Source: Lacrimispora saccharolytica
Lineage (GTDB): Bacteria; Bacillota; Clostridia; Lachnospirales; Lachnospiraceae
NCBI GenBank assembly: GCA_021531795.1
Contig: JADYUL010000008.1
Location: 1-64,000 of the forward strand
Length of the DNA: 64,000 nucleotides
Direction: 5' to 3'
Shown: one piece after another, positions 596 through 56,145 of the stretch
Layout: each line of letters starts with the position of its first letter
Position numbering within the stretch: the stretch's first letter is position 1
Position numbers and translations under genes: made by a program
Notes under the pieces: generated by a model
Databases searched by the model: none
The model's input: the letters and a program-made list of their open reading frames with translations, nothing else
Told to the model about the DNA's origin: nothing

Positions 596-934
596 ATGAA
601 AAACATTAATTCATTAAAAAATTCAAGAGAATTCGGTAGAGTATACAGCAATGGTAAATCCTACGCCAATAAGTATTTGGTGATGATAGTTCTGGGCAAC
701 GATCTTGACTGTAACCGTATTGGATTTTCTATTAGTAAGAAGGTTGGTAACAGTGTTGTAAGACATTATTTTGCCAGAATTCTTAGAGAGATTTACAGAT
801 TACATAAAGAGGTGTTCAGTAGTGGTCTGGACATTGTAATCATTGTTAAACCGAGCGCTTCTGAATGTAAATTCAGAGAAATAGAAAGCGCATTTTTACA
901 TCTTGCGAAGCTGCATAACAAAAATATGCAGTAG
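596..934 (+). CDS. rnpA: ribonuclease P protein component
   Basis: A 112-residue basic protein, the usual RnpA size, which binds the RNase P RNA and helps 5' maturation of tRNA precursors. The central block [14 protein letters not shown] is typical. The following signature, canonically RNRxKRxxRE, reads [10 protein letters not shown] here, so N, the second R and K are replaced by H, Y and A. Position between rpmH and yidD supports the call. The start at 596 has no good Shine-Dalgarno sequence. The gene overlaps the open frame leading into yidD but not the proper yidD start. Confidence 0.93.
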
Positions 935-944
935 TTTGTACAAT

Positions 945-1154
945 ATGAAGAATATTATTATTTGTTTAATAAAGTTCTATCAGAAGTATTTATCTCCCCT
1001 TAAATCTACAAAGTGTCCGTATATTCCAAGTTGTTCACAATATGGACTTGAAGCAGTAGAGAAATACGGAGCGATTAAGGGAAGTGCACTTGCACTATGG
1101 AGAATACTCAGATGTAATCCATTTTCTAAGGGTGGATATGACCCGGTTCCTTAA
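945..1154 (+). CDS. yidD: membrane protein insertion efficiency factor YidD
   Basis: A 69-residue protein with the YidD pattern [12 protein letters not shown], the cysteines in [21 protein letters not shown] and the end [17 protein letters not shown]. YidD is a small amphipathic inner-membrane protein that assists YidC-dependent insertion. The ATG at 945 matches the family N-terminus ([11 protein letters not shown]). The frame stays open upstream to 903, but that extension overlaps the end of rnpA and is not conserved. yidC follows after 23 nt. Confidence 0.95.
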
Positions 1155-1177
1155 AATGGAATTAAGGAGGATACAAA

Positions 1178-2479
1178 TTGGAATTTACAGGAATTTATTT
1201 AACACAGTATGAAGGAGCAATCCTTGGACCTGTAGCTAAATTACTTGGATATCTTATGGATTGGATATTCAACGGATTATATGCTATTGGTATTCCAAAT
1301 ATCGGAATTGCTATTATTCTTTTTACTATTGTTATTTATATGCTTATGCTTCCGCTTACCATTAAGCAACAGAAGTTCTCTAAACTTTCTGCAAAGATGA
1401 ATCCTGAGATTCAGGCAATTCAGAAGAAGTATAACGGCAAAAAGGATAATGATTCCGTTATGGCTATGAACCAGGAGACCCAGGCTGTATATGCCAAGTA
1501 CGGTGTTTCTCCTACAGGCAGCTGTGTACAGTTACTTATTCAGATGCCTATTCTTATGGCACTCTATCGAGTTATCTATGCAATACCTGCTTATGTTGGT
1601 AAAGTTAAGGAAATCTTCATTCCCATGTCAGAGGCTCTATATTCACAGAGTGGAATAAAGAACTTCATTGAGGGACTTAGCAATGCCAATTATTTTTCTT
1701 CACAGTTTAAAAACGCTCTTTATATTGATAATGATCCTACATATGTAAAGAATGTAATTATCGACAGTTTTAACAGAGCGTCAACAGCTGAGTGGCACTC
1801 AGCCATGGATTTATTCACAGGTCAGAGTGATCTTATAGGTAAGGCCATGGTTGATTTCGAGAATTTCAACAATTTCCTTGGTCTCAATATTGCCAACTCA
1901 CCTTCATTCACAATTAAGACTGCACTTGCCGACAAGCACTTCCTATTAATAATAGGAGCTCTTATGGTGCCTGTGCTTGCTGCACTTACACAGTGGATTA
2001 ATACAAAGCTTATGCCTCAGCCGGAGAATGGTAATACCCAGACAGATCAGATGGCTGCAACCATGAAGAGCATGAATGTAATGATGCCTCTCATGTCAGC
2101 TTTCTTCTGTTATACAATGCCTATAGGTATGGGTATTTACTGGATTGCCGGTGCAGTTGTTCGTTGTATTCAGCAGATAGTAATCAATAAGCATATCGAC
2201 AAGATGGATATAGATGAGATTATTGAGAAAAATTCAGCTAAGGCAGAGAAGAAGATTAAGAAGCAGCAGGAGAACATTCAGAGAATGAATGAATATGCCA
2301 CCATGAACACCCGTAATATGGGAATAGGTGATAAGGCAAGGCTTGCCAATAATGCTTCTGATAATGGCAAAAATGCGAACAACTCAGTTGCGGGCGATTT
2401 TACCAAAACTGTAAATGCAAAGCCCGGAAGTCTTGCTTCAAAAGCAAATATGGTAACAGATTACAATAACAGGAAATAA
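1178..2479 (+). CDS. yidC: membrane protein insertase YidC/OxaA
   Basis: A 433-residue polytopic protein. YidC inserts membrane proteins alone or with SecYEG. The N-terminal part carries GIAIILFTIVIYMLMLPLT followed by the cytoplasmic KxQQKF...KMNPEIQAIQKKY segment and GCVQLLIQMPI-type helices, all typical of the 60KD_IMP core. A family-typical loop separates the core helices, and there is a long Lys/Asn-rich cytoplasmic tail from about residue 345. Translation starts at TTG (1178) seven nt after AAGGAGG (1164-1170). Followed by jag, as in most Firmicutes. Confidence 0.95.
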   Translation: MEFTGIYLTQYEGAILGPVAKLLGYLMDWIFNGLYAIGIPNIGIAIILFTIVIYMLMLPLTIKQQKFSKLSAKMNPEIQAIQKKYNGKKDNDSVMAMNQETQAVYAKYGVSPTGSCVQLLIQMPILMALYRVIYAIPAYVGKVKEIFIPMSEALYSQSGIKNFIEGLSNANYFSSQFKNALYIDNDPTYVKNVIIDSFNRASTAEWHSAMDLFTGQSDLIGKAMVDFENFNNFLGLNIANSPSFTIKTALADKHFLLIIGALMVPVLAALTQWINTKLMPQPENGNTQTDQMAATMKSMNVMMPLMSAFFCYTMPIGMGIYWIAGAVVRCIQQIVINKHIDKMDIDEIIEKNSAKAEKKIKKQQENIQRMNEYATMNTRNMGIGDKARLANNASDNGKNANNSVAGDFTKTVNAKPGSLASKANMVTDYNNRK

Positions 2480-2495
2480 TAATGGAGAGTATAAG

Positions 2496-3116
2496 ATGGA
2501 ATATACTAAGTTTAGTGCCAAGACTGTAAATGATGCCATAACAGAGGCATGTAAGGCTCTTGGTGTTACGAGTGATAAGCTCGATTACAAAGTAGTTGAA
2601 GAGGGAAGTAACGGTTTCCTCGGAATCGGAGCAAAGGATGCAGTTATCGAAGCTGCAGTTAAGAATTCGGTTTCTGATGTTGCTTCTGAATTCCTTAAGG
2701 ATGTGTTCGCGGCCATGAATATAATAGTGGTTGTGGATGTTAAGTACAACGCTGAGAATAATGAGATGAATATTGATCTGTCCGGTGATGATATGGGAGT
2801 TCTCATCGGTAAGAGAGGACAGACACTCGATTCACTTCAGTATCTGGTATCACTTGTTGTTAATAAGGGCAATGAGGATTATATCAGAGTTAAGGTTGAT
2901 ACAGAGAATTACCGTGAGAGACGTAAGAGTACTCTGGAGAACCTTGCTAAGAATATGGCATACAAGGTTAAGAGAACAAGACGTCCGCTTCATTTAGAGC
3001 CAATGAACCCATATGAGAGAAGAATTATTCATTCAGCACTTCAGAATGATAAGTTTGTTACTACTCACAGTGAAGGTGAAGAGCCATACAGACATGTTGT
3101 TATTACATTAAAGTAG
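2496..3116 (+). CDS. jag: RNA-binding protein Jag/KhpB (Jag_N-KH-R3H)
   Basis: A 206-residue protein with three parts. The Jag N-terminal domain has EGSNGFLGIGAKDAVI at about residues 36-51. The KH domain has GVLIGKRGQTLDSLQYL at about 101-117. The C-terminal R3H-like segment has MNPYERRIIHSAL near 170. KhpB proteins bind RNA and in several Firmicutes affect cell elongation and sRNA-mRNA contacts. It follows yidC by 16 nt, and a strong terminator comes right after its stop. Confidence 0.95.
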   Translation: MEYTKFSAKTVNDAITEACKALGVTSDKLDYKVVEEGSNGFLGIGAKDAVIEAAVKNSVSDVASEFLKDVFAAMNIIVVVDVKYNAENNEMNIDLSGDDMGVLIGKRGQTLDSLQYLVSLVVNKGNEDYIRVKVDTENYRERRKSTLENLAKNMAYKVKRTRRPLHLEPMNPYERRIIHSALQNDKFVTTHSEGEEPYRHVVITLK

Positions 3117-3125
3117 ACTTTTAAT

Positions 3126-3150
3126 GAGGGGGATCAATCCCCCTCTTTTT
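3126..3150 (+). terminator. terminator between jag and mnmE
   Basis: GAGGGGGAT pairs with ATCCCCCTC (3126-3145), followed by T5. It closes the rpmH-jag operon. It lies only 7 nt before the mnmE start, inside the upstream part of the open mnmE frame, which rules out the longer mnmE start. Confidence 0.85.
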
Positions 3151-3156
3151 GTATAT

Positions 3157-4554
3157 ATGAAGAATCCTACCATTGCTGCAATTGCAACCGCACTTGATAA
3201 TTCCGGAATTGCGATAATCAGAGTTTCGGGTGATGAAGCAATTGATATTGTAAGTAAATTATTTATTACTCCGTCAGGTAAACTTTTATCTGACTGTAAG
3301 TCAGGCACAATTAATTACGGTCATATTATATTTAACAGTGATGTGATCGATGAGGTATATGTGTCGCTATTTCGTTCGCCTAACAGCTACACCAGAGAGG
3401 ATGTTGTTGAAATCAATACTCATGGTGGAATATATGTAACAAAGAAAGTTCTTGCGGTTTTGCTTAAAAATGGATGCAGACTTGCCATGCCGGGTGAATT
3501 CAGCAAGAGAGCCTTTCTAAACGGAAGGATTGATTTAAGTCAGGCTGAAGCAGTCATGGAATTGATCAATTCAGAAAATGATCTGTCGCTTAAGTCGGGA
3601 ATCAGTAAGCTAAGTGGCAGTGTATATAAGAAGATTAAGGAAATCAGGGATGAGATAATATATGAGATTGCTCATATTGAGTCAGCCCTTGATGATCCGG
3701 AACACATAAGTCTTGATAATTACTCTGAGGAAATCAGGAATAAAATAGATAAAATATTAAAAGAGCTTACAAAACTTTCTGATTCAACAGAAACCGGCAG
3801 AATAATTCGAAACGGAATTAAAACAGTAATTGTCGGTAAACCTAATGTCGGAAAGTCTTCTGTTATGAATGTACTTTTGGGTGAGGACAGAGCAATTGTA
3901 ACAGACATTGAAGGAACTACAAGGGATTCAATAGAAGAGGGACTTAAGCTTGGTAATATAAATTTGAGGCTCATTGATACTGCCGGTATCAGGAATTCCG
4001 AGGATATAATTGAGAATATCGGAATTGAGAAATCGATAACTCTCTGTAATGATGCTGATTTAATATTATTTGTTATTGATTCCTCAAGAGAACTTGATGA
4101 TAATGATATCAAGATAATTAAGATGACTGAGAATAAGAAGATGATAATTCTTCTTAACAAAACCGATAAGGATATGGTTGTAAGTGAAGAGGATATCGAT
4201 AAGCTTATGTCAGAGAGAGGAAATGCATCATCAACTTATCATATTATCCCGGTATCGGCTAAGGAAAATATTGGTTTTGATGAATTGTCTAATGTAGCTG
4301 AGAGCTTATTTATTGACACTAATGTCATTAATTCAAATGAAGTCATAATTACCAATCTAAGACATAAGGCAAATATTGATGATGCAATTCTGAGTCTTAA
4401 TTCTGTTATTAATAGTATTGAGCTTGGAATGCCTGAGGATTTCTATACCATTGACATGATGGGTGCATATACATCTCTTGGATATATTATTGGTGAAGAG
4501 GTGGATGATGACCTGGTTAATGAGATTTTCTCAAAATTCTGTATGGGTAAATAA
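3157..4554 (+). CDS. mnmE: tRNA modification GTPase MnmE
   Basis: A 465-residue protein. With MnmG it forms the carboxymethylaminomethyl group on U34 of certain tRNAs. N-terminal formyl-THF-binding domain (TIAAIATALDNSGIAIIRVSG), then a helical region, then the G domain with P-loop GKPNVGKSS near residue 225, DTAG and NKTD. The C-terminus is FCMGK, the family's catalytic cysteine motif. The ATG at 3157 fits the family N-terminus, but there is no Shine-Dalgarno sequence and a terminator ends just upstream. How the gene is transcribed and translated is therefore unclear. Confidence 0.96.
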   Translation: MKNPTIAAIATALDNSGIAIIRVSGDEAIDIVSKLFITPSGKLLSDCKSGTINYGHIIFNSDVIDEVYVSLFRSPNSYTREDVVEINTHGGIYVTKKVLAVLLKNGCRLAMPGEFSKRAFLNGRIDLSQAEAVMELINSENDLSLKSGISKLSGSVYKKIKEIRDEIIYEIAHIESALDDPEHISLDNYSEEIRNKIDKILKELTKLSDSTETGRIIRNGIKTVIVGKPNVGKSSVMNVLLGEDRAIVTDIEGTTRDSIEEGLKLGNINLRLIDTAGIRNSEDIIENIGIEKSITLCNDADLILFVIDSSRELDDNDIKIIKMTENKKMIILLNKTDKDMVVSEEDIDKLMSERGNASSTYHIIPVSAKENIGFDELSNVAESLFIDTNVINSNEVIITNLRHKANIDDAILSLNSVINSIELGMPEDFYTIDMMGAYTSLGYIIGEEVDDDLVNEIFSKFCMGK

Positions 4555-4557
4555 ATA

Positions 4558-6507
4558 ATGAGTAGTACTATTAGGGAAAAAGTTGATATTTGTGTTGTCG
4601 GTGCCGGCCATGCAGGTTGTGAGGCAGCACTTGCCTGTGCCCGTCTTGGGTTTAATACCGTGATATTTACAATTAGTGTTGACAGTATTGCTCTCATGCC
4701 ATGTAATCCTAATATCGGAGGAAGCTCTAAGGGACATTTGGTTCGTGAAATAGATGCTCTCGGCGGTGAGATGGGCAAGAATATAGATAAGACCTTCATT
4801 CAATCCAAGATGCTTAATGTATCCAAGGGTCCGGCAGTTCACAGTCTTAGGGCTCAGGCGGATAAACAGATGTATAGCCTTGAGATGAGAAAAGTACTCG
4901 AATCCACTAATAATCTCACTATTAAGCAGGCTGAGGTAACTGACATTCTGACTGTGGAAGACATGAAGCATATAGATGACATGAATGAGATCATCCCTTA
5001 TGAAAGAGATATGTCTAATCAGGAGATTGCGGGAGTCAGGATCAATACCGGAGCAATATATGAATGCAGGGCAGTAATACTGTGTACCGGAACTTATCTT
5101 AATGCCAGATGTCTATGTGGTGAGTCAATAACTTATACAGGTCCTAATGGACTTATGGCTGCAACCTCACTTACCTCTTCTTTACTTAATCACGGTATTA
5201 AGACAAGAAGATTCAAGACAGGAACTCCTGCCAGAATGGATGGAAGGAGTTTAGATTATTCTAAGATGGAGGAACAGTTCGGTGATGAGAAGATAGTACC
5301 CTTCTCATTTTCAACCAATCCTGACGATATTCAGAAGGATCAGGTATCCTGTTTCTTAACTTATACCAATGAGGAGACTCATAAAATAATAAGAGAGAAT
5401 CTTGACAGAAGTCCGATTTATGCCGGAATAATAGAAGGTACCGGTCCGAGATACTGTCCCAGTATCGAGGATAAGGTTGTCAAGTTTGCTGATAAAGAGA
5501 GACATCAGGTATTTTTAGAGCCGGAAGGATTATTTACCAATGAGATGTATGTTGGTGGAATGAGTTCATCTCTTCCCGAAGATGTTCAGCTTAAGATGTA
5601 TCGTACAGTTCCCGGAATGGAGAATTGTAAGATAGTAAAGCATGCTTATGCAATTGAGTATGATTGTATTGATGCTAATATTCTTAATCTTTCTTTGATG
5701 TTTAAGAATATTAAGGGACTGTTCGCCGGTGGCCAGTTCAACGGGAGCAGCGGATATGAAGAAGCTGCAGCTCAAGGTCTGATGGCCGGAATCAATGCAT
5801 CGAGATTGCTTCAAGGCAAGGAGCCTGTAATAATTGACAGGTCCGAGGGTTATATCGGTGTACTCATTGATGACCTTGTAACCAAGGAATCAAGAGAGCC
5901 ATATCGAATGATGACCTCAAGGGCAGAGTACAGATTACTTCTCAGACAGGACAATGCCGACCTGAGGCTTCGTGACATAGGATTTGAAATAGGCCTAATT
6001 ACTGAGGTTCAGAGGGATGAACTTGAGAAGAAGCGCTGTATGATAAAATCAGAGATCCAAAGGTATAAAAATACGTCTGTGGGTGCTAATAATCGAATAC
6101 AGAGCTTCCTTTTGGAGCATAATTCTACCCCTCTTAAGTCTGGTTCAACACTTGCAGAACTACTGGCACGTCCCGAACTAAATATTGTTATGTTAACCGA
6201 GATAGATGATGACAGACCTTCTTTACCTGATGATGTATTAAAGCAGGTCGAAATAGAGATAAAGTATGAGGGATATATCAAGAGACAGATATCTCAGGTT
6301 GAAGCGTTTAAGAAGATGGAAGGTAAGAAGCTGCCTGATGATATTGATTATGATGATGTAGGAAGTCTGAGACTTGAGGCCAGAGCTAAACTCAAGGCAC
6401 TCAGACCTTCAAGTGTCGGTCAGGCTTCAAGAATTTCAGGTGTTAGCCCTGCCGATATTTCTGTTTTGCTTGTATATCTTGAGCATATTAAGAATGGAAA
6501 CAAATAA
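4558..6507 (+). CDS. mnmG: tRNA uridine-5-carboxymethylaminomethyl modification enzyme MnmG (GidA)
   Basis: A 649-residue FAD enzyme, the partner of MnmE. The Rossmann motif [15 protein letters not shown] lies at residues 11-25, [23 protein letters not shown] follows, and TGTPAR comes later. The C-terminal helical region carries the SRLSPAD-like [12 protein letters not shown] element. Length is normal (about 620-650). It begins 3 nt after mnmE and rsmG overlaps its end, so the three genes are surely cotranscribed. Confidence 0.97.
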
Positions 6508-7198
6508 TATGAACCTCTTTGGAATAGAATTATCTGATGTTCAAAAGGATCAATTCAACAGATATTATTCTTTACTGATTGAATGGAATGATAAAATAAA
6601 CCTTACTGCAATTACTGATAAGCAGGAAGTTATTAAGAAGCATTTTGAGGACAGCTTAAGTATTTCTTCCGTTATAGATATGAATGCTGTTAATTCGGTA
6701 ATTGATGTCGGCACGGGAGCCGGTTTTCCCGGGATACCGCTTAAGATAGTATTTCCGGGTCTTAAGCTCACATTACTGGATTCCTTAAATAAGAGGATTA
6801 ACTTTTTAAATATTGTAGTTGATGAGCTTGGATTAGCAGATGTGTCTGCTATTCATGGCAGAGCAGAGGAGTACGGTAGAGATGTAGTATATAGAGAATC
6901 CTTTGATCTGTGTGTATCAAGGGCTGTAGCTAATCTTTCTACACTTTCTGAATTTTGTCTGCCGTTTGTGAAGGTAGGAGGATACTTTGTATCCTATAAA
7001 TCCGAAAAGGCTGATATTGAATATATTGAAGCAAAAAATGCAATTAATCTTCTATCCGGTGGTAATGTAAGGATTGAGGATGTTATAATAACTGATACTG
7101 ATTTAACCAGGAAGATGGTTCTTATTGAAAAGCTCTCTCCTATGGATGACAAATATCCAAGAAGAGCAGGTATTCCACTTAAGAAACCTTTGAGGTAA
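6494..7198 (+). CDS. rsmG: 16S rRNA (guanine527-N7)-methyltransferase RsmG (GidB)
   Basis: A SAM-dependent methyltransferase of about 234 residues modifying G527 of 16S rRNA. It shows the family start [28 protein letters not shown], read here as separate blocks LSDVQKDQF and [11 protein letters not shown], then SAM motif [15 protein letters not shown] and [15 protein letters not shown] 6494 gives [16 protein letters not shown] 6509 is an equally possible start. Neither has a strong ribosome site. The first overlaps mnmG by 14 nt, suggesting coupling. The stop TAA lies two bases before a parS-like site. Confidence 0.94.
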
Positions 7199-7199
7199 A

Positions 7200-7215
7200 T
7201 ATTTCACGTGAAACA
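7200..7215. promoter_or_regulatory. parS: parS site 1, overlapping the start codon of the next gene
   Basis: TATTTCACGTGAAACA matches the Firmicute parS consensus TGTTTCACGTGAAACA at 15 of 16 positions. Its central CACGTG supplies the GTG start codon (7208-7210) of the histidine kinase gene. Function as a ParB nucleation site is inferred from the sequence and from the nearby parA/parB. Confidence 0.85.
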
Positions 7216-7882
7216 AATTACTATTACAAATGTTGATTCTGAGAGTGTAAAATATTTTGAACAGGTTGAATTCTATAACAAGGTGATTTCTTCTGAGCTT
7301 CATGATACTTCACTTCAGACATTGGCATATCTTGTCAATCAGATTGATATAGTAAAACTATATATTGATAAGGATACTACTGTTGCTAAGGAGTTGCTTG
7401 ATAAGAGTAGGGTTGAGTTAAAGAAGGTTATAGATGAACTTAGAGGAACTATTTCTATATTACGTCCTATGCAGTTAGACGATCTTACGTTTTCCGAAGC
7501 ACTGGAACATCTTATTTTAGAATATGATGTTAAGACCGATATAAAGTTTAATAGTAAGATAGAGGAAATAGATATTTCAAATAAGAGATTATCTTACAGT
7601 CTTTATAAGGTTGCTTCGGAATGTATTATTAATTCGATGAAGCATTCTGATGCGGAAAATATATATGTTAATATGATGTATAAAGACGGACATCTTATTC
7701 TGGAGTTTAAAGATGACGGAATTGGATTTAATTATAATAGTATTATGAAGGATAAACATTACGGTCTTCAAATCATGAAAGACAGAGTCATTTCTATGGG
7801 GGGAAATGTTGAATATGATTCGTTTGATGATTCAGGCAGAGGACTAAGTATTACTATAAAAATTCCGGCAACATTTAAATAA
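7208..7882 (+). CDS. soluble DegS/NarX-like sensor histidine kinase
   Basis: A 224-residue protein with no membrane helix, hence a cytosolic kinase. The HisKA_3-type phosphoacceptor is ISSELHDTSLQTLAYL, with His about residue 32. The HATPase part has ECIINSMKHSDAE (N box), DDGIGFN (G1) and YGLQIMKDRVISMGG (G2). It lacks any recognizable sensor domain: the N-terminal 25 residues are all that precede the dimerization helix. It starts with GTG inside a parS palindrome, 12 nt after GAGG, and is followed after 14 nt by its NarL-type partner. The signal sensed is unknown. Confidence 0.85.
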   Translation: MKQITITNVDSESVKYFEQVEFYNKVISSELHDTSLQTLAYLVNQIDIVKLYIDKDTTVAKELLDKSRVELKKVIDELRGTISILRPMQLDDLTFSEALEHLILEYDVKTDIKFNSKIEEIDISNKRLSYSLYKVASECIINSMKHSDAENIYVNMMYKDGHLILEFKDDGIGFNYNSIMKDKHYGLQIMKDRVISMGGNVEYDSFDDSGRGLSITIKIPATFK

Positions 7883-7896
7883 AAGGGGTATTATAT

Positions 7897-8538
7897 ATGA
7901 TAAGTATTATTATTGTTGATGATCACAAATTAATTAGAGAAGGACTTAAGCAGTTAATCGAGTTCAATGAAGATATGACTGTTATTGCTGAATATTCAAA
8001 CGGTATTGATTACTTGAAAGAAATAGATAATAATATTGCAGATATAATTCTTTTGGATATCAATATGCCTGATATGAATGGTCTTGAGGTTCTGGACAAG
8101 ATTAAGCAGCATAATAAGGATCAGAAGGTTATTATTCTTACTGTCCATAATGAGGTCGAATATCTTGTTAAGGCAAGAAAGTACAAAGCAGAGGGATATA
8201 TTCTTAAGGATGCAGGCTTTGAAGAGTTAAGAAATGCCATTATCAGAGTCAATGAAGGAGAAATATATATTCATCCGTCATTAATACCAGCATTTAATAA
8301 CTTTATGATAAAGAAGGATAAGGATGAAAATCTTATCGATACACTTACTACCAGAGAAATAGAAGTATTAAAGCTTGTAGTTGTAGGAGGCTCTAATAAA
8401 GATATTGCTGATAAACTTGGTATATCTGAGAGAACCATTAAGAATCATATATCAAATATCTTTAAGAAGATAAATGTTTCTGACAGAACACAGGCGGCTG
8501 TATTTGCTATCAAGAATGATCTTATATCCGTAAAGTAA
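7897..8538 (+). CDS. NarL/FixJ-family response regulator
   Basis: A 213-residue protein. The receiver domain (about 1-120) has IVDDHKLIREGL, phosphoacceptor Asp in ILLDINMPDMNG and conserved Lys in GYILKDAG. The C-terminal LuxR-type HTH (about 145-205) has LTTREIEVLKLV and KDIADKLGISERTIKNHISNIFKKINVSDRTQAAVFA. It pairs with the kinase directly upstream. Its stop codon is 4 nt before a 32-bp palindrome that contains a perfect parS, and no other terminator is seen. Confidence 0.9.
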   Translation: MISIIIVDDHKLIREGLKQLIEFNEDMTVIAEYSNGIDYLKEIDNNIADIILLDINMPDMNGLEVLDKIKQHNKDQKVIILTVHNEVEYLVKARKYKAEGYILKDAGFEELRNAIIRVNEGEIYIHPSLIPAFNNFMIKKDKDENLIDTLTTREIEVLKLVVVGGSNKDIADKLGISERTIKNHISNIFKKINVSDRTQAAVFAIKNDLISVK

Positions 8539-8542
8539 AATT

Positions 8543-8574
8543 TATTGGGATGTTTCACGTGAAACATCCCAATA
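8543..8574. promoter_or_regulatory. parS: parS site 2 inside a 32-bp perfect palindrome
   Basis: A perfect 16-bp parS (TGTTTCACGTGAAACA, 8551-8566) is flanked on both sides by 8 more complementary bases (TATTGGGA and TCCCAATA). This gives an uninterrupted 32-bp palindrome. No T-run follows, so it is not a normal rho-independent terminator. Confidence 0.95.
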
Positions 8575-8609
8575 TCTATGATTTACATAATTTTGTAAAC
8601 CCAAGATAA

Positions 8610-8625
8610 TGTTTCACGTGAAACA
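8610..8625. promoter_or_regulatory. parS: parS site 3
   Basis: A perfect copy of TGTTTCACGTGAAACA lies 59 nt downstream of site 2 and upstream of parA. Together with sites 1 and 2 it makes an origin-proximal ParB loading zone. Confidence 0.95.
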
Positions 8626-8653
8626 ATTAGACCCAAAATATAGTCAAGTTAGT

Positions 8654-8686
8654 GTGAAACATTGCAAAATCAGGACATGTGAAACA
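8654..8686 (+). promoter_or_regulatory. two parS half-sites
   Basis: GTGAAACA, the right half of parS, occurs at 8654-8661 and again at 8679-8686, 25 nt apart and in the same orientation, with no matching left halves. They may be decayed parS sites or weak accessory sites; function is not known. Confidence 0.5.
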
Positions 8687-8727
8687 ATTTACAATCCAAA
8701 TTTATCATAGAAGAAGCAATAGAATAG

Positions 8728-8736
8728 TGTTATAAT
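8728..8736 (+). promoter_or_regulatory. extended -10 promoter of parA
   Basis: TGTTATAAT is an extended -10 element with a perfect TATAAT at 8731-8736 and no good -35 box. It is placed about 40 nt before the parA start and downstream of the parS sites, so ParB spreading could affect it. Confidence 0.6.
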
Positions 8737-8775
8737 AATTCTTGCGCGATTGAATGGACAGAATTGGAGAATAAT

Positions 8776-9540
8776 ATGGGTAAAGTAATATCTGTTGCCA
8801 ACCAGAAGGGTGGCGTAGGTAAAACAACAACAACAATTAATCTTGCTGCTGCATTGGGTGAAGCAGGCAAGAAGGTTCTTGTAATAGACATGGACCCACA
8901 GGGAAACACCACAAGCGGAATGGGTGTGGACAAGAATGAAGAAGAGAATACAATCTATGAACTGATGCTTGGAGAAAGCGTGATAGGAAATTGCATTAAG
9001 AAGGATGTAGTGAAGAATGTATCACTGATTCCTGCCAATGTTGATTTTGCTGCAGCTGAAGTTGAACTTATCGGAATTGAGAAGTCGGAGTTCATATTAA
9101 AGAATCAGCTTGAGAAGGTAAAGGATGGTTATGATTTTATATTGATAGACTGCCCTCCTTCACTCAGTACACTTACTGTCAATGCACTTACAACCAGTGA
9201 CAGTGTATTGGTACCAATTCAGTGTGAGTATTATGCTCTTGAGGGCTTGAGCCAGCTGATTCACACGATTAATCTAATAAGACAGAGACTTAATAATAAG
9301 ATAAATATTGAAGGTGTTGTATTTACAATGTATGATTCAAGAACTAATCTGTCATCACAGGTTGTTGAGAATGTAAAGGCAAACTTCGCATATACTGTAT
9401 TTGATACAGTGATTCCCAGAAACACCAGACTGGCGGAGGCTCCCAGCTTCGGAATGCCGGTATTGGAATATGATTCAAAGGCGCCCGGTTCAGAAGCCTA
9501 CAGAGCTCTGGCCAAGGAAGTGATTAAGAACAACAGATAA
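8776..9540 (+). CDS. parA: chromosome partitioning ATPase ParA (Soj)
   Basis: A 254-residue deviant-Walker ATPase. MGKVISVANQKGGVGKTTTTINL holds the signature KGGVGKTTT with both lysines. DMDPQGNTTSGMG and LIDCPPSL (Walker B) follow. ParA acts with ParB-parS in origin segregation and, in Bacillus, on DnaA. I chose ATG 8776, 5 nt after GGAGA, rather than the upstream in-frame TTG at 8764, because family members begin MxKVI. parB follows after 11 nt. Confidence 0.96.
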   Translation: MGKVISVANQKGGVGKTTTTINLAAALGEAGKKVLVIDMDPQGNTTSGMGVDKNEEENTIYELMLGESVIGNCIKKDVVKNVSLIPANVDFAAAEVELIGIEKSEFILKNQLEKVKDGYDFILIDCPPSLSTLTVNALTTSDSVLVPIQCEYYALEGLSQLIHTINLIRQRLNNKINIEGVVFTMYDSRTNLSSQVVENVKANFAYTVFDTVIPRNTRLAEAPSFGMPVLEYDSKAPGSEAYRALAKEVIKNNR

Positions 9541-9551
9541 TTGGGGGTATT

Positions 9552-10451
9552 ATGGCACCAAAAAGAGGATTGGGTAAGGGACTGGATTCATTAATTCCTA
9601 ATTCAGTTGATACTAAGGAAGTAGTTCAGAATACTGAGACGGCAGAGAAACCGGACAGATTTGTTGATATCAATAAGCTAGAGCCTAACAGAGAGCAGCC
9701 AAGAAAAAATTTCGACCAGGAAGCTCTTGCAGAGCTTGCAGATTCAATCAAGAAATTCGGGCTTATTCAGCCGATTCTTGTTCAGGACAGAGATTCATAT
9801 TATGAAATAGTAGCCGGTGAGAGACGATGGAGAGCATCAAAACTTGCAGGTCTTAAAGAAGTGCCTGTAATTATCCGCAAGTTCACTGAGCAGGAAATAG
9901 TGGAAATCTCACTTATTGAGAATATTCAGAGAGAGGACTTAAATCCTATCGAAGAGGCCCTCGCATATAAGAGACTTCATACAGAATTCAATCTTAAGCA
10001 GGATGAGGTAGCTGACAGAGTATCCAAGAGCAGGGCTGCGGTTGCTAATTCCATGAGACTGCTTAAACTGGCAGAGAATGTACAGCAGATGGTAGTTGAT
10101 GGAGAGATATCGACCGGACATGCCAGAGCACTTCTTGCAATAGAGGATGAGAATGAACAGTACAGAATAGCGCTTAAGGTATATAACGAGAAGATGAGTG
10201 TAAGAGATGTTGAGAAGCTCATCAAGAATCTCGGAAAGCCTAAGAAGGATAGCAACGGTGACAGTAAGATAAATGAATCTGTATTACTTGCATATCAGAA
10301 GCTTGAAGAAGAGCTTAAGGTTGCACTCGGAACAAAGGTATCTATTGTTGCCAAGGATACAGAGAAGGGAAACGGTAAGCTCGAAATAGAATTCTACAGT
10401 GTCGATGATTTGGAGAGGATCAGCGATATTATGAAGGGAAATAAGGAATAA
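9552..10451 (+). CDS. parB: chromosome partitioning protein ParB (Spo0J)
   Basis: A 299-residue parS-binding CTPase clamp. The N-terminal MAPKRGLGKGLDSLIP motif contacts ParA. The CTPase motifs are IVAGERRWRA near residue 98 and ISLIENIQREDLNPIEEA near residue 118. The HTH (about 140-185) has LKQDEVADRVSKSRAAVAN. The C-terminal dimer domain is at about 230-299. Its target sites are the parS copies at 7200, 8551 and 8610. The last base of its stop codon is the first base of the next start (ATAATGA-type overlap). Confidence 0.96.
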   Translation: MAPKRGLGKGLDSLIPNSVDTKEVVQNTETAEKPDRFVDINKLEPNREQPRKNFDQEALAELADSIKKFGLIQPILVQDRDSYYEIVAGERRWRASKLAGLKEVPVIIRKFTEQEIVEISLIENIQREDLNPIEEALAYKRLHTEFNLKQDEVADRVSKSRAAVANSMRLLKLAENVQQMVVDGEISTGHARALLAIEDENEQYRIALKVYNEKMSVRDVEKLIKNLGKPKKDSNGDSKINESVLLAYQKLEEELKVALGTKVSIVAKDTEKGNGKLEIEFYSVDDLERISDIMKGNKE

Positions 10452-52975: not shown

Positions 52976-54062
52976 TCATGAGCCCCTGTTCCATGTGGTC
53001 AAGAGGGATGAATTATCCAGAGGTAAGGGAATATTGATAAGGGTAGTTGCCATTATCGTAGCTCTTATTTTTTGTGGAATTATTACCGTAGCACTTACGG
53101 GTGTCAATCCCATAAGTGTATACGGAACTATGGTAACCGGAGCCTTCGGTTCAGTACGTAAGACCTGGGTAACACTTCAGAACACCGCAATTTTGCTGCT
53201 AATAGCTCTTGCACTTACTCCTGCATTCAGGATGAAGTTCTGGAACTGCGGCGGTGAGGGACAGATTCTGATGGGTGGTCTTGCTTCCGCTGCCTGCATG
53301 ATTACTCTTGCAGACAAGCTTCCGAATGCAGTAATCATAATCTTAATGATTATTTCAAGTATTGTTGCCGGTGCTGTCTGGGCAGGACTTCCGGCGCTGT
53401 TCAAGGCTCTCTGGAATACTAACGAGACCTTGAGCACACTTATGATGAACTATATTGCCATTCAGCTGGTGGCTTACTTTACCGTTGTATGGGAGAATCC
53501 TAAGGGTTCGGGTAAGATTGGTATCATCAATCAGAATTCCAATATCGGATGGCTGCCTGAGATAGCTAACAAGTATCTGCTTGCTATTGTTGTAGGTCTT
53601 ATTATTACTTTCTTCGTATACATCTATATCTACTATACAAAGCACGGATATGAGGTATGTGTAGTCGGAGAGAGCTACAGAACCGCAAGATATGTTGGAA
53701 TCAAGGTTGGCAAGGTAATTGTAAGGACACTTCTGCTTTCGGGTGCACTCTGCGGACTTGTGGGCTTACTTCTGGTTGGTGGAATCAATCATACAATTAC
53801 TACAACAATTGCCGGTGGACAGGGCTTCACAGCGATTATGGTATCGTGGCTTGCGAAGTTCAATCCCTTCGTGATGATTCTTACCAGTGGACTTATCGTC
53901 TTCCTTGGAAGGGGAGCAGGAGAGATTGCAACCGTGTTTGGCTTTAATCAGTCTTTCTCGGATATTCTGACAGGAATTATTCTGTTCTGCATTATCGGTT
54001 GCGAATTCTTCGTGACCTATAAGATAAAGATTAATAAGAAGGAGGGAGAAGGCAATGTTTGA
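52965..54062 (+). CDS. ABC transporter permease, nucleoside type (subunit 1)
   Basis: A 365-residue protein with about 8-9 membrane helices, of the BPD_transp_2 family. It carries WNCGGEGQILMGGLAS, NETLSTLMMNYIAIQLVAY and RTARYVGIKVGKVIV (the ATPase-contact EAA-like loop). ATG 52965 follows GGAGGGGAGGAT. It overlaps the ATPase gene and the second permease gene, so the three are translated as a unit. Confidence 0.92.
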   Translation: MKNNHEPLFHVVKRDELSRGKGILIRVVAIIVALIFCGIITVALTGVNPISVYGTMVTGAFGSVRKTWVTLQNTAILLLIALALTPAFRMKFWNCGGEGQILMGGLASAACMITLADKLPNAVIIILMIISSIVAGAVWAGLPALFKALWNTNETLSTLMMNYIAIQLVAYFTVVWENPKGSGKIGIINQNSNIGWLPEIANKYLLAIVVGLIITFFVYIYIYYTKHGYEVCVVGESYRTARYVGIKVGKVIVRTLLLSGALCGLVGLLLVGGINHTITTTIAGGQGFTAIMVSWLAKFNPFVMILTSGLIVFLGRGAGEIATVFGFNQSFSDILTGIILFCIIGCEFFVTYKIKINKKEGEGNV

Positions 54063-55044
54063 TTTTCTTATCTCATTCATACCTCGTGCGGTAGGTCAGG
54101 GAATCCCTCTGTTATACGGAAGTACAGGCGAAATAATGACGGAGAAGTCGGGTAATCTGAACCTTGGAATTCCCGGTGTCATGTATGTGGGAGGAATAGC
54201 CGGAGTCATTGGCGCTTTTCTCTATGAGCAGGGTGGCAATGTTATTGCACCACTGGCTATCTTAATTCCGCTTCTGTGCTCGCTGTTGGGTTCACTCATA
54301 ATGGGACTTATCTACTGTTTCTTAACAGTAACACTTCGTGCCAACCAGAATGTAACAGGTCTTGCAATGACCACCTTCGGTGTCGGTATCGGTAACTTCT
54401 TCGGAGGTTCATTAATTAAGATTTCGGGAGCGGATGTTCCCTCAATTGCACTGTCTGAGACAAGTGCATACTTCTCGAAGAGCCTGCCGTTTGCTGATAA
54501 GTGCGGCTGGTTTGGCAAGGTATTCTTATCCTACGGATTCTTAGCTTATCTTGCGATTATTATTGCTATTGTCTGCTCAGTAGTTCTTAAGAGAACCAGA
54601 ATCGGTCTTCACTTAAGAGCAGTGGGAGAGGATCCCGCAACAGCTGATGCTGCAGGAATTAATGTCACCCGATATAAATATGTCTCAACCTGTATAGGTT
54701 GCATGATAGCCGGAATCGGCGGTCTCTACTATGTTATGGACTATGCCTGTGGCGTTTGGAGCAATGATGCATTCGGAGACAGAGGCTGGCTTGCCATTGC
54801 CCTTGTTATATTTACTATCTGGAGACCGAATGTCAGCATAGTATCTTCCATCTTCTTCGGCGGACTCTATATCCTCTATATGTATCTGCCGACAGGAATG
54901 GAGCACATGGAAGTTAAGGAATTGTACAAGATGCTTCCATATATCGTTACACTTATTGTTCTTGTAATTACAAGTATGCGCAATCGTCGCGAGGATCAGC
55001 CCCCTGCATCTTTAGGCCTTGCCTACTTCAGGGAGTCGAGATAA
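54055..55044 (+). CDS. ABC transporter permease, nucleoside type (subunit 2)
   Basis: A 329-residue protein with about 8-9 helices. The start GIPLLYGSTGEIMTEKSGNLNLGIPGVMYVGG is the usual beginning of YufQ-like permeases, with LRAVGEDPATADAAGINVTRYKY as the ATPase-contact loop. Heterodimer partner of subunit 1. Last gene of the transporter operon; the palindrome array begins 24 nt after its stop. Confidence 0.93.
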   Translation: MFDFLISFIPRAVGQGIPLLYGSTGEIMTEKSGNLNLGIPGVMYVGGIAGVIGAFLYEQGGNVIAPLAILIPLLCSLLGSLIMGLIYCFLTVTLRANQNVTGLAMTTFGVGIGNFFGGSLIKISGADVPSIALSETSAYFSKSLPFADKCGWFGKVFLSYGFLAYLAIIIAIVCSVVLKRTRIGLHLRAVGEDPATADAAGINVTRYKYVSTCIGCMIAGIGGLYYVMDYACGVWSNDAFGDRGWLAIALVIFTIWRPNVSIVSSIFFGGLYILYMYLPTGMEHMEVKELYKMLPYIVTLIVLVITSMRNRREDQPPASLGLAYFRESR

Positions 55045-55193
55045 TTATTTTGATATGTTTTTGAGATGATACATCGGAATTGCCTGTTATTGCGGGGTTC
55101 CGATGTATTTTCATTATGATTTGCGCGGAGATAAGCTTGGAGCTTGAGTATGTGGCAACGCGGGTTGCTTAATTTGATGACCTGGAGGGGGAG

Positions 55194-55242
55194 ATACATC
55201 GGGATTGCATGATTTTGTGGAGTTCCGATGTATTCTTTTTTT
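55194..55242 (+). terminator. palindrome unit 2 acting as terminator of the ABC operon
   Basis: The unit's 12-bp stem (one G-U) is followed directly by TCTTTTTTT (55234-55241). Unit 1, nearer to the gene, has only TTTTC after it, so termination may be shared. Confidence 0.65.
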
Positions 55243-55589
55243 GGATACATCGGAATCAGATATTTTTGTTGAATCCCGATGTATCTGGAATGTGTGGTTT
55301 CTGGAACATACATCGGAAATGCTCCCATTTAGGGCCTTTCCGATGTATTGTTACTCTAGTTTCAGTAGGCGATACATCGGGATTGAGATTTCAATGCCCA
55401 TCCCGATGTACGGAGGTCCAAATCTATCTATAAAATACATCGGGATGGGCTAATATAGACCATTTCCGATGTATCGCCAAAAATTGCCAAAACAAAATAC
55501 ATCGGGATTCAACAATTCATAGCAATCCCGATGTATCAAAATCCAGCATACATCGGAAATCCAAGTTTTCTTCAAATCCCGATGTATTC

Positions 55590-55735
55590 AAATTAATTTC
55601 CCGCGATTATACCCGCTTTCCCCCGAAGTGTATCCCCGCGCAAACAGATTTCAATAAAAAAATACATCGGAATTCAACAAATTATAGAAATCCCGATGTA
55701 TTTCAATTAATTTCCCGCGATTATACTCACTTTCC
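55590..55735 (+). repeat. duplicated tail after palindrome units 8 and 9
   Basis: AATTAATTTCCCGCGATTATAC is nearly identical after unit 8 (about 55590-55612) and after unit 9 (about 55705-55727). It extends with CCGCTTTCC and TCACTTTCC. A unit plus its tail was apparently duplicated. Confidence 0.75.
55651..55701 (-). terminator. palindrome unit 9 acting as terminator of the Fe-S operon
   Basis: On the minus strand the stem of unit 9 is followed by T7 (complement of the A-run 55655-55661). It is about 50 nt downstream of the end of the Rrf2 gene. Confidence 0.7.
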
Positions 55736-55749
55736 TCTCAGAAGACAAA

Positions 55750-56145
55750 TCATAGCAGCTCAGACAGCATCACATTGTCGATGTAGTTGTTGACGGTGTC
55801 GTTTAAACCCTTCCAGAACTTGATGGTCTTGCACTCGCCGGCGCGCATACATTCTGTGGCATTCTCCGACAGGCAGGATACGGGGGCGAGCTCACGCTCT
55901 GTGAGGCGTAGAATCTTACCTACGGGAATCTCAGAGGCGGGTTTACATAACTTGTAGCCACCGCCCTTTCCGTGGACACCTTCCACGAGACCGGCTTTCT
56001 TTAGGGCAGGAATTATCTGCTCAATATATTTGTGGCTGAGTCCCTGTCTGGCAGCTACATCCTTCATAGGTACATAGGAATCGCTGTCATGACCGGCTAT
56101 ATCTATCATAACCTTTAAGGCATATCTTCCTCTGGTAGAAATCAT
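55750..56145 (-). CDS. iscR: Rrf2-family regulator, IscR-like
   Basis: A 131-residue protein. N-terminal winged helix: MISTRGRYALKVMIDIAGHD, DVAARQGLSHKYIEQIIPALKKAGLVEGVHGKGGGYKL. Three cysteines (CLSENATECMRAGEC, near residues 91-105) match the [2Fe-2S] ligands of IscR. It should repress the nifS-nifU operon when Fe-S supply is enough; two palindromes upstream of nifS are candidate operators. Here the regulator gene is last in the operon, overlapping nifU by one base, not first as in E. coli. Confidence 0.9.
   Translation of the reverse strand: MISTRGRYALKVMIDIAGHDSDSYVPMKDVAARQGLSHKYIEQIIPALKKAGLVEGVHGKGGGYKLCKPASEIPVGKILRLTERELAPVSCLSENATECMRAGECKTIKFWKGLNDTVNNYIDNVMLSELL

Follow-up and report, generated by a model that had tools for sequence, protein, structure and literature searches.

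Ordered arrays of helically spaced palindromes in Lacrimispora saccharolytica as candidate protein-binding platforms

Introduction

The ParB dimer binds palindromic sites, parS, near the replication origin. The biotin operator of Escherichia coli, bioO, to which BirA binds, is a 40-bp dyad in which two 12-bp arms flank a 16-bp centre, and BirA operators are single sites at a few promoters. Passages of one report (PMC4016012) describe E. coli and Bacillus subtilis BirA operators as differing in sequence and spacing, and B. subtilis BirA as not binding one half of the inverted repeat. Passages of another (PMC3116907) count 50 SlmA sites, with none in the Ter macrodomain, place Noc binding outside terC, and give matS as repeated 23 times in Ter. 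The site families of SlmA, Noc and MatP revealed chromosome ordering and division placement. REPs are characterized, in part of a third report (PMC3733652), as palindromes of 20-40 bp that end in GTAG or CGTC, and RAYT genes with terminal inverted repeats of their own are described there.

Here we analyse an array of palindromes in a 64,000-nucleotide stretch of Lacrimispora saccharolytica DNA, which we call the window, and its counterparts in the rest of the genome and in relatives. For this array a sequence-only reading had offered three ideas: a REPIN-like passenger of a RAYT transposase, a multi-site platform for a DNA-binding protein, and a 3'-end stabilizer. Our literature searches, made in open-licence papers, returned no description of such ordered, helically spaced palindrome arrays.

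Results

Nine palindromic units between converging genes

Nine palindromic units make up the window array; one measures 41 nt and the others 40 nt. They start at 55069, 55194, 55245, 55308, 55372, 55435, 55497, 55548 and 55662. Its features, with the unit types defined by comparison across arrays, are as follows.

55069..55701, no strand: whole array of nine palindromic units; start-to-start spacings 125, 51, 63, 64, 63, 62, 51, 114
55069..55108, no strand: unit type A, first copy (unit-type comparison across arrays)
55118..55145, plus strand: GATTTGCGCGGAG box between the two A units; found again in the A-type spacers of further arrays of the genome
55194..55233, no strand: unit type A, second copy (unit-type comparison across arrays)
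55245..55284, no strand: unit type B (unit-type comparison and array alignment)
55308..55348, no strand: unit type C, 41 nt (unit-type comparison and array alignment)
55372..55411, no strand: unit type D, final base C in 18 aligned arrays (unit-type comparison and alignment)
55435..55474, no strand: unit type E (unit-type comparison and array alignment)
55497..55536, no strand: unit type F (unit-type comparison and array alignment)
55548..55587, no strand: unit type G (unit-type comparison across arrays)
55593..55616, plus strand: TTAATTTCCCGCG box in the spacer that follows unit G, family D4; recurs in other arrays
55662..55701, no strand: unit type F, second copy (unit-type comparison across arrays)
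55707..55730, plus strand: second TTAATTTCCCGCG box, at the element's right edge, family D4

The sequence-only reading had located all nine units correctly, and had placed them between convergent 3' ends; indeed, the genes on either side, one for a permease (54055-55044, plus strand) and one of the Rrf2 family (55750-56145, minus strand), converge on the array with their 3' ends. It had also found no complete unit elsewhere in the window, which holds for exact units: TACATCGG occurs 21 times in the window on both strands (100 shuffles averaged 1.31), with 18 of these copies forming the arms of the nine units and the remaining three (17041, 18305 and 50655) single and isolated.

In the longer spacers of many arrays, GCGCGG and CCCGCG boxes form a second recurrent motif interleaved with the palindromes; the alignment behind these boxes includes unrelated rows and was used solely to see them. 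We do not claim an inverted symmetry of the array as a whole. The window's A spacer scored 33 against its reversed F spacer (maximum of 500 shuffles, 29), and the consensus versions of these spacers scored 16, under a shuffle maximum of 32.

About 24 ordered arrays across the genome

The genome comprises 2,148,134 bases in 28 contigs. We found 156 exact units of the form TACATCGG-N18-30-CCGATGTA genome-wide, compared with none for the backwards control; 155 of them lie in 19 array stretches, and the remaining one is on C23 near 45.9 kb. The 706-nt element had 106 BLAST matches, all on contigs C4, C11, C22, C23, C25, C27 and C28. By our count the genome holds about 24 arrays, the window's included; this treats the halves at the ends of C4 and C11 as a single array, counts the adjacent pair on C22 separately and includes the two-unit array on C23 (near 45.9 kb). 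Once oriented alike, most arrays run through an identical series of unit types, A-B-C-D-E-F-G, the usual spacings along it being 125, 51, 62-63, 63-64, 63, 62, 51 and 113-116. Copy number differs among arrays for the A and F/G modules, incomplete and atypical arrays occur, and the extracted segments contain from 2 to 12 units. The unit centres had been called unrelated to one another; this stands within an array, but each centre recurs, in order, in the matching units of other arrays. A CRISPR array, in which identical repeats flank unique spacers, does not fit on the same grounds, since centres and spacers recur in order between arrays. On the sequence-only reading, a unit confined to this locus and absent from relatives would have left a family of elements unsupported. 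What we found is about two dozen arrays here and, in some relatives, arrays with other arms.

The arms are kept while spacers and centres diverge

To measure constraint, we aligned the extracted segments that cover B through F, 18 of the 24, and left out the other six. These loci were not selected by their arms, since BLAST with the full 706-nt element also recovers them. Across these 18 arrays, the 9-nt arms had a mean pairwise difference of 0.0094 over 90 columns, 84 of them invariant, compared with 0.213 over 91 columns for the spacers and 0.258 over 81 columns for the centres; the three bases inward of the 9-nt arm differ by 10% between copies. Identity over units B-F as a whole averaged 85% (range 70-97%). 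That the arms vary far less than the spacers and centres indicates that they were kept after the copies separated. Unit statistics were taken on 169 of 170 units, the dropped row being an overlapping false match of 42 nt. Length is nearly fixed (40 nt in 163 units, 41 in four, 39 in two), both 9-nt arms are perfect in 127 of the 169 units, and the 338 half-sites give the consensus ATACATCGGRAT.

Relatives carry arrays with other arms

BLAST with the whole element over 20 genomes of the genus gave matches in its own genome only. Exact single units occurred in two of 61 genomes (its own and G023, with one unit) and in three of 397 (its own, G023 and G086, with one unit each in the latter two), and a three-arm pattern searched among 299 genomes matched its own genome alone. 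Over a collection of 85k species this pattern matched two loci, of which L067 is credible, with four units 61-61.5 bp apart, TACATCG arms and, by eye, a fifth, degenerate unit; L066 (Bacteroidetes) was rejected as a chance match. The single units in G023 and G086 are surrounded by further palindromes with drifting arms, and we therefore wrote a motif-free detector, which calls at least three inverted repeats with an identical 7-nt arm of any sequence. The detector recovered 22 arrays in 20 array-bearing stretches of the source genome, with the two adjacent C22 arrays counted as one and the two-unit pieces on C4 and C23 falling under its threshold. It found no array in 568 kb of array-free DNA from the same genome, in shuffles, or in 100 kb of E. 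coli.

In the congener G008, the detector found TACGGAA arrays on two contigs with a spacing of 74-75 (two arrays in 260 kb). G086 and G073 belong to genera other than the source's. G086 has CTACGTA arrays on two contigs, spaced 52.5-53 and once 63, and a GGGATCG array (L232:7916-8171) spaced 73, making three arrays in 244 kb; G073 has one TACGGTT array in 20 kb, with spacings of 53 and 159. The detector also calls the L067 array. Unit spans in all these arrays of relatives are 36-39 nt; since detection requires exact 7-nt arms, arm identity there is by construction. No array came from the remaining 25 of the 28 genomes of which stretches were sampled, in many cases no more than 20 kb. When the two G008 arrays were compared, 54 of 89 centre positions, 63 of 101 spacer positions and all 55 arm positions agreed (the arms being the search key), and the two look like diverged copies of one ordered array. 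Inspection of G086 by eye also showed consecutive palindromes whose arms drift among ACATCGA, ACATCGG and ACAGCGG (L201:9763-10080); together with the GGGATCG and CTACGTA arrays of that genome, this run indicates that more than one arm type is possible per genome. A motif search built on one species can miss such elements, because the architecture and not the sequence is shared.

The sequence-only reading had also suggested looking for the array at this locus in sister strains. An Rrf2 gene match is present in 18 of the 20 genus genomes, the source included, and the detector found no array at 19 Rrf2 loci of other genomes. The 11 flanks of this gene read from 10 other genus genomes were not syntenic with the window and so offered no empty site for comparison.

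Units are mostly spaced by whole helical turns

We asked how unit spacings relate to the helical repeat. For 145 unit spacings, whose values are not independent, R was 0.89 and was maximal at 10.5 bp among the periods tried, 9.5 to 12.0; the 23 distinct spacings, likewise not independent, gave an R of 0.76 with the same maximum. With a 10.5-bp turn, 16 of these 23 values fall within 0.15 turn of a whole number, and seven are further off: 59 by 0.38, 113 by 0.24, and 50.5, 128, 166, 187 and 250 by 0.19 turn. Linkers longer by 10 bp (72 for 62) and by 11 bp (136 for 125) occur. Twelve representative spacings, picked by us as one per spacing type and lineage, gave an R of 0.90, which none of 20,000 random sets reached; for the six representatives from relatives only, R was matched by 107 of 20,000 random sets.

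Pairing and context argue for a DNA site

Palindromes could also act as RNA, with hairpins that terminate the flanking transcripts or stabilize their 3' ends. As RNA, the window array folds much better than 20 shuffles (z -12.3), as expected of repeated palindromes, and in 14 folds of its nine units (nine on the plus strand, five on the minus) each beat the mean of its shuffles, with z from -2.5 to -7.9. The window array also lies between convergent 3' ends. Co-variation of the arms would be expected of a functional hairpin, and pairing between them gives a mixed picture across 148 distinct units. Arm position 10 holds A or G in almost every case, and agreement between the arms was found there in 42 units compared with 72.7 in shuffles, fewer than chance; position 11 is at chance (137 agreements, 137.3 expected); and position 12 is above it (82 compared with 72.5, with 18 of 2,000 shuffles equally high). 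Stem pairing is thus opposed at position 10 and weakly favoured at position 12, while the eight innermost centre pairs match at 2.57 of 8, where chance gives about 2. The units show no consistent arm covariation.

Other tests bear on the same alternative. Terminator-like sites (a G+C-rich stem followed by a T-run) in the array numbered one compared with 0.8 in shuffles, which is chance level, and all six Rfam matches to window positions 54900-56000, at up to E 1, scored under the gathering thresholds. Nor is it obvious what helical-turn spacing would mean in an RNA. Finally, we counted gene orientation in the 17 of 23 intergenic array regions with two assignable neighbours, leaving out six without two secure ones and taking as neighbours the longest ORFs of at least 90 aa rather than annotated genes. 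Nine regions were co-directional, five convergent and three divergent, and in two of the divergent regions both neighbours have Pfam support (TrkA/MatE and MCPsignal/Dabb). Arrays are therefore not confined to 3' ends, which weakens the earlier idea of a 3'-end stabilizer, and we regard an RNA-level element as improbable. A TATAAT in the F spacer was considered as a promoter and rejected (three sites compared with 2.8 in shuffles).

Neighbouring genes give little sign of a regulon

A second alternative is that the units are operators through which one transcription factor controls the adjacent genes, as an operator-like dyad with constrained half-sites and the three divergent regions might suggest. 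We listed 40 array neighbours (38 plus two in the window) and scanned 34 of them against Pfam, namely 32 of the 38 and both in the window; six of these 34 were without any match, and the 34 included neither a transposase family nor a consistent neighbour gene. The neighbours are mixed in function (GalP_UDP_transf, PFK, Dus, TrkA, MatE, Chromate_transp, Glyco_transf_5, Asn_synthase), the five convergent regions do not fit such control, and up to 12 sites per array would be many for one promoter. We consider a regulon very unlikely. About 140 bases left of one array (C25:79.0 kb) lies a perfect hairpin with ACATCGG arms (L059:9008-9045), which may be an ordinary terminator.

Mobility of the arrays

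The proposal of a REPIN-like passenger called for a search for Y1 transposases, and the genome has two such genes. One, on C23, adjoins a TnpB-like ORF named by eye. The other, of 255 aa, lies on C24 near 71.8 kb (L172:5212-6594; C24:71.2-72.6 kb); we call it RAYT-like, its Pfam family being Y1_Tnp, and its presence is what recommends a REP/REPIN family mobilised by the genome's own RAYT. However, this gene is bordered by 25-nt perfect inverted repeats of its own, unrelated to the units, and by 19-bp tandem repeats; a 21-nt part of its terminus has three copies in the genome at up to three mismatches, all within 5 kb on C24, and all 156 exact units lie away from it. In addition, the half-site consensus carries no GTAG or CGTC tag, and the half-site has no hairpin of its own. 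The idea of a RAYT passenger was not borne out, and we find such a family scarcely credible.

A broader alternative is a mobile element, selfish or domesticated, that spread as non-autonomous copies and whose arms serve a transposase or recombinase as binding sites. Such an element would leave ordered copies like the roughly 24 seen here, which share 70-97% identity over B-F and vary in their number of end modules, and the lineage-specific arms of relatives resemble transposase/site pairs changing together. Against this, left edges differ, some at a unit and others inside an A-type spacer, and by eye we saw no common end or target duplication. After insertion the arms should decay like the spacers, yet they differ about 23-fold less. 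No transposase family appeared among the scanned neighbours, the element had no match in the phage and plasmid records searched, and neither the window's arms, searched with two patterns, nor the CTACGTAT arms of G086 matched in viral contigs. The TACGGAA arms of G008 matched two viral loci, which we rejected as chance: L263 has one unit and a half, L264 is located within coding repeats, and neither locus contains an array by the detector. Taken together, these observations make a mobile element unlikely as the account of the arrays.

Some arrays have themselves received insertions. The ends of contigs C4 and C11 (C4:1-275, L047; C11:1-100, L048) are two halves of one array with an insertion between units C and D and an 8-bp duplication, CTAGTTTC. 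This octamer is also where the array at the C28 end (near 83.5 kb, L064) breaks off; the C25-end array (near 129.8 kb, L061) breaks off after CAAATTTC. All three insertion points seen fall in array spacers and none inside a unit. The ends of the insertions may resemble those of IS256-type elements.

Arrays and the layout of the chromosome

The window begins with a block of rnpA, yidC, jag, mnmE, mnmG, rsmG, parA and parB (596-10451), of which rnpA, parA and parB were confirmed by Pfam and the others named by eye. Three parS copies adjoin parA-parB: those at 8551 and 8610 are perfect and that at 7200 has one mismatch. Gene order and parS together mark the window's left end as origin-proximal. 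The DnaA C-terminal domain had no match in the genome, a lack that might reflect a contig end at the origin. On contig C21, 12 sampled stretches show GC skew and coding strand both reversing within 130-165 kb, as at a terminus, which places the replication terminus on this contig.

We found no array on this terminus-bearing contig of 374 kb. Array-free contigs make up 944 of 2148 kb, and 73 of 100,000 random placements were as extreme; after merging neighbours, the clumping of arrays was equalled by 756 of 100,000. Absence from the terminus contig alone is a weak result (P 0.010, or 0.026 after merging). For this set of unordered contigs, these data suggest a domain-level distribution of the arrays. 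Two genes in the genome have a ParB_N domain, each adjoining a ParA-like gene; the second such pair (L176, C22:238.5 kb), whose ParB-like member has only the ParB N-terminal domain in Pfam, lies about 13 kb from an array.

Discussion

Constrained half-sites, free centres of nearly fixed length, helical spacing and the lack of consistent covariation are most simply accounted for by protein platforms. We therefore lean, with some reserve, toward the reading that the arrays are platforms for a putative dimeric, sequence-specific DNA-binding protein that would sit on one face of the helix. Each 40-bp unit would be operator-like, with opposed half-sites of about 12 bp (consensus ATACATCGGRAT) on either side of a centre that is conserved in length but free in sequence. 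Most units are about 5, 6, 11 or 12 helical turns apart, and whole-turn spacing would put bound dimers on one face of the DNA, where they could touch. The dimers would then form a compact cooperative cluster, 2 to 12 per array. The protein, its dimeric state and its cooperativity we infer from the architecture of the sites. A multi-site protein platform is also the best supported of the three ideas first offered for the array: arm constraint, helical spacing and the absence of general arm covariation speak for it, and on the other side no protein was identified among the genes examined around the arrays.

Among possible roles for such platforms we favour ordering or anchoring of the chromosome, or control of division, over regulation of adjacent genes, and we hold this chromosome-level role to be, at best, a speculative possibility. 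The platform reading leaves the copying of whole ordered arrays unexplained; a mobile origin followed by use by the host would reconcile the evidence. More broadly, we tentatively propose that these arrays could represent a class of chromosomal element, namely ordered arrays of 36-40-bp palindromes with whole-turn spacing, lineage-specific half-sites, a geometry shared within the family and a chromosome-level role, although we think it less probable than not that the full description applies. If it did, fast-evolving DNA-binding proteins would have changed specificity together with dozens of genomic docking platforms. A family of constrained, whole-turn-spaced, lineage-specific arms would be a natural series in which to follow the joint change of protein and site specificity, and would point to a putative chromosome-associated protein in Lachnospiraceae.

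How do the arrays compare with described systems? Like REP, BIME and REPIN sequences, they are intergenic palindromes in many copies, often grouped, but they differ in their untagged half-sites, free centres, ordered arrays and helical spacing. The geometry of bioO equals that of the array unit; geometry alone is compared here, and the BirA operator arms are presumably unrelated to the array arms. With respect to ParB, canonical parS is present separately beside parA-parB, and the array units do not resemble it. The closest functional analogues may be the sites of SlmA, Noc and MatP: these are constrained palindromic protein sites found in tens across the chromosome, and here there are about 24 clusters, with none on the terminus contig. 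SlmA and MatP sites, however, are single and of 12-13 bp, whereas the candidate sites described here are 40-bp dyads with a free centre, 2 to 12 per array, helically spaced and copied as ordered sets.
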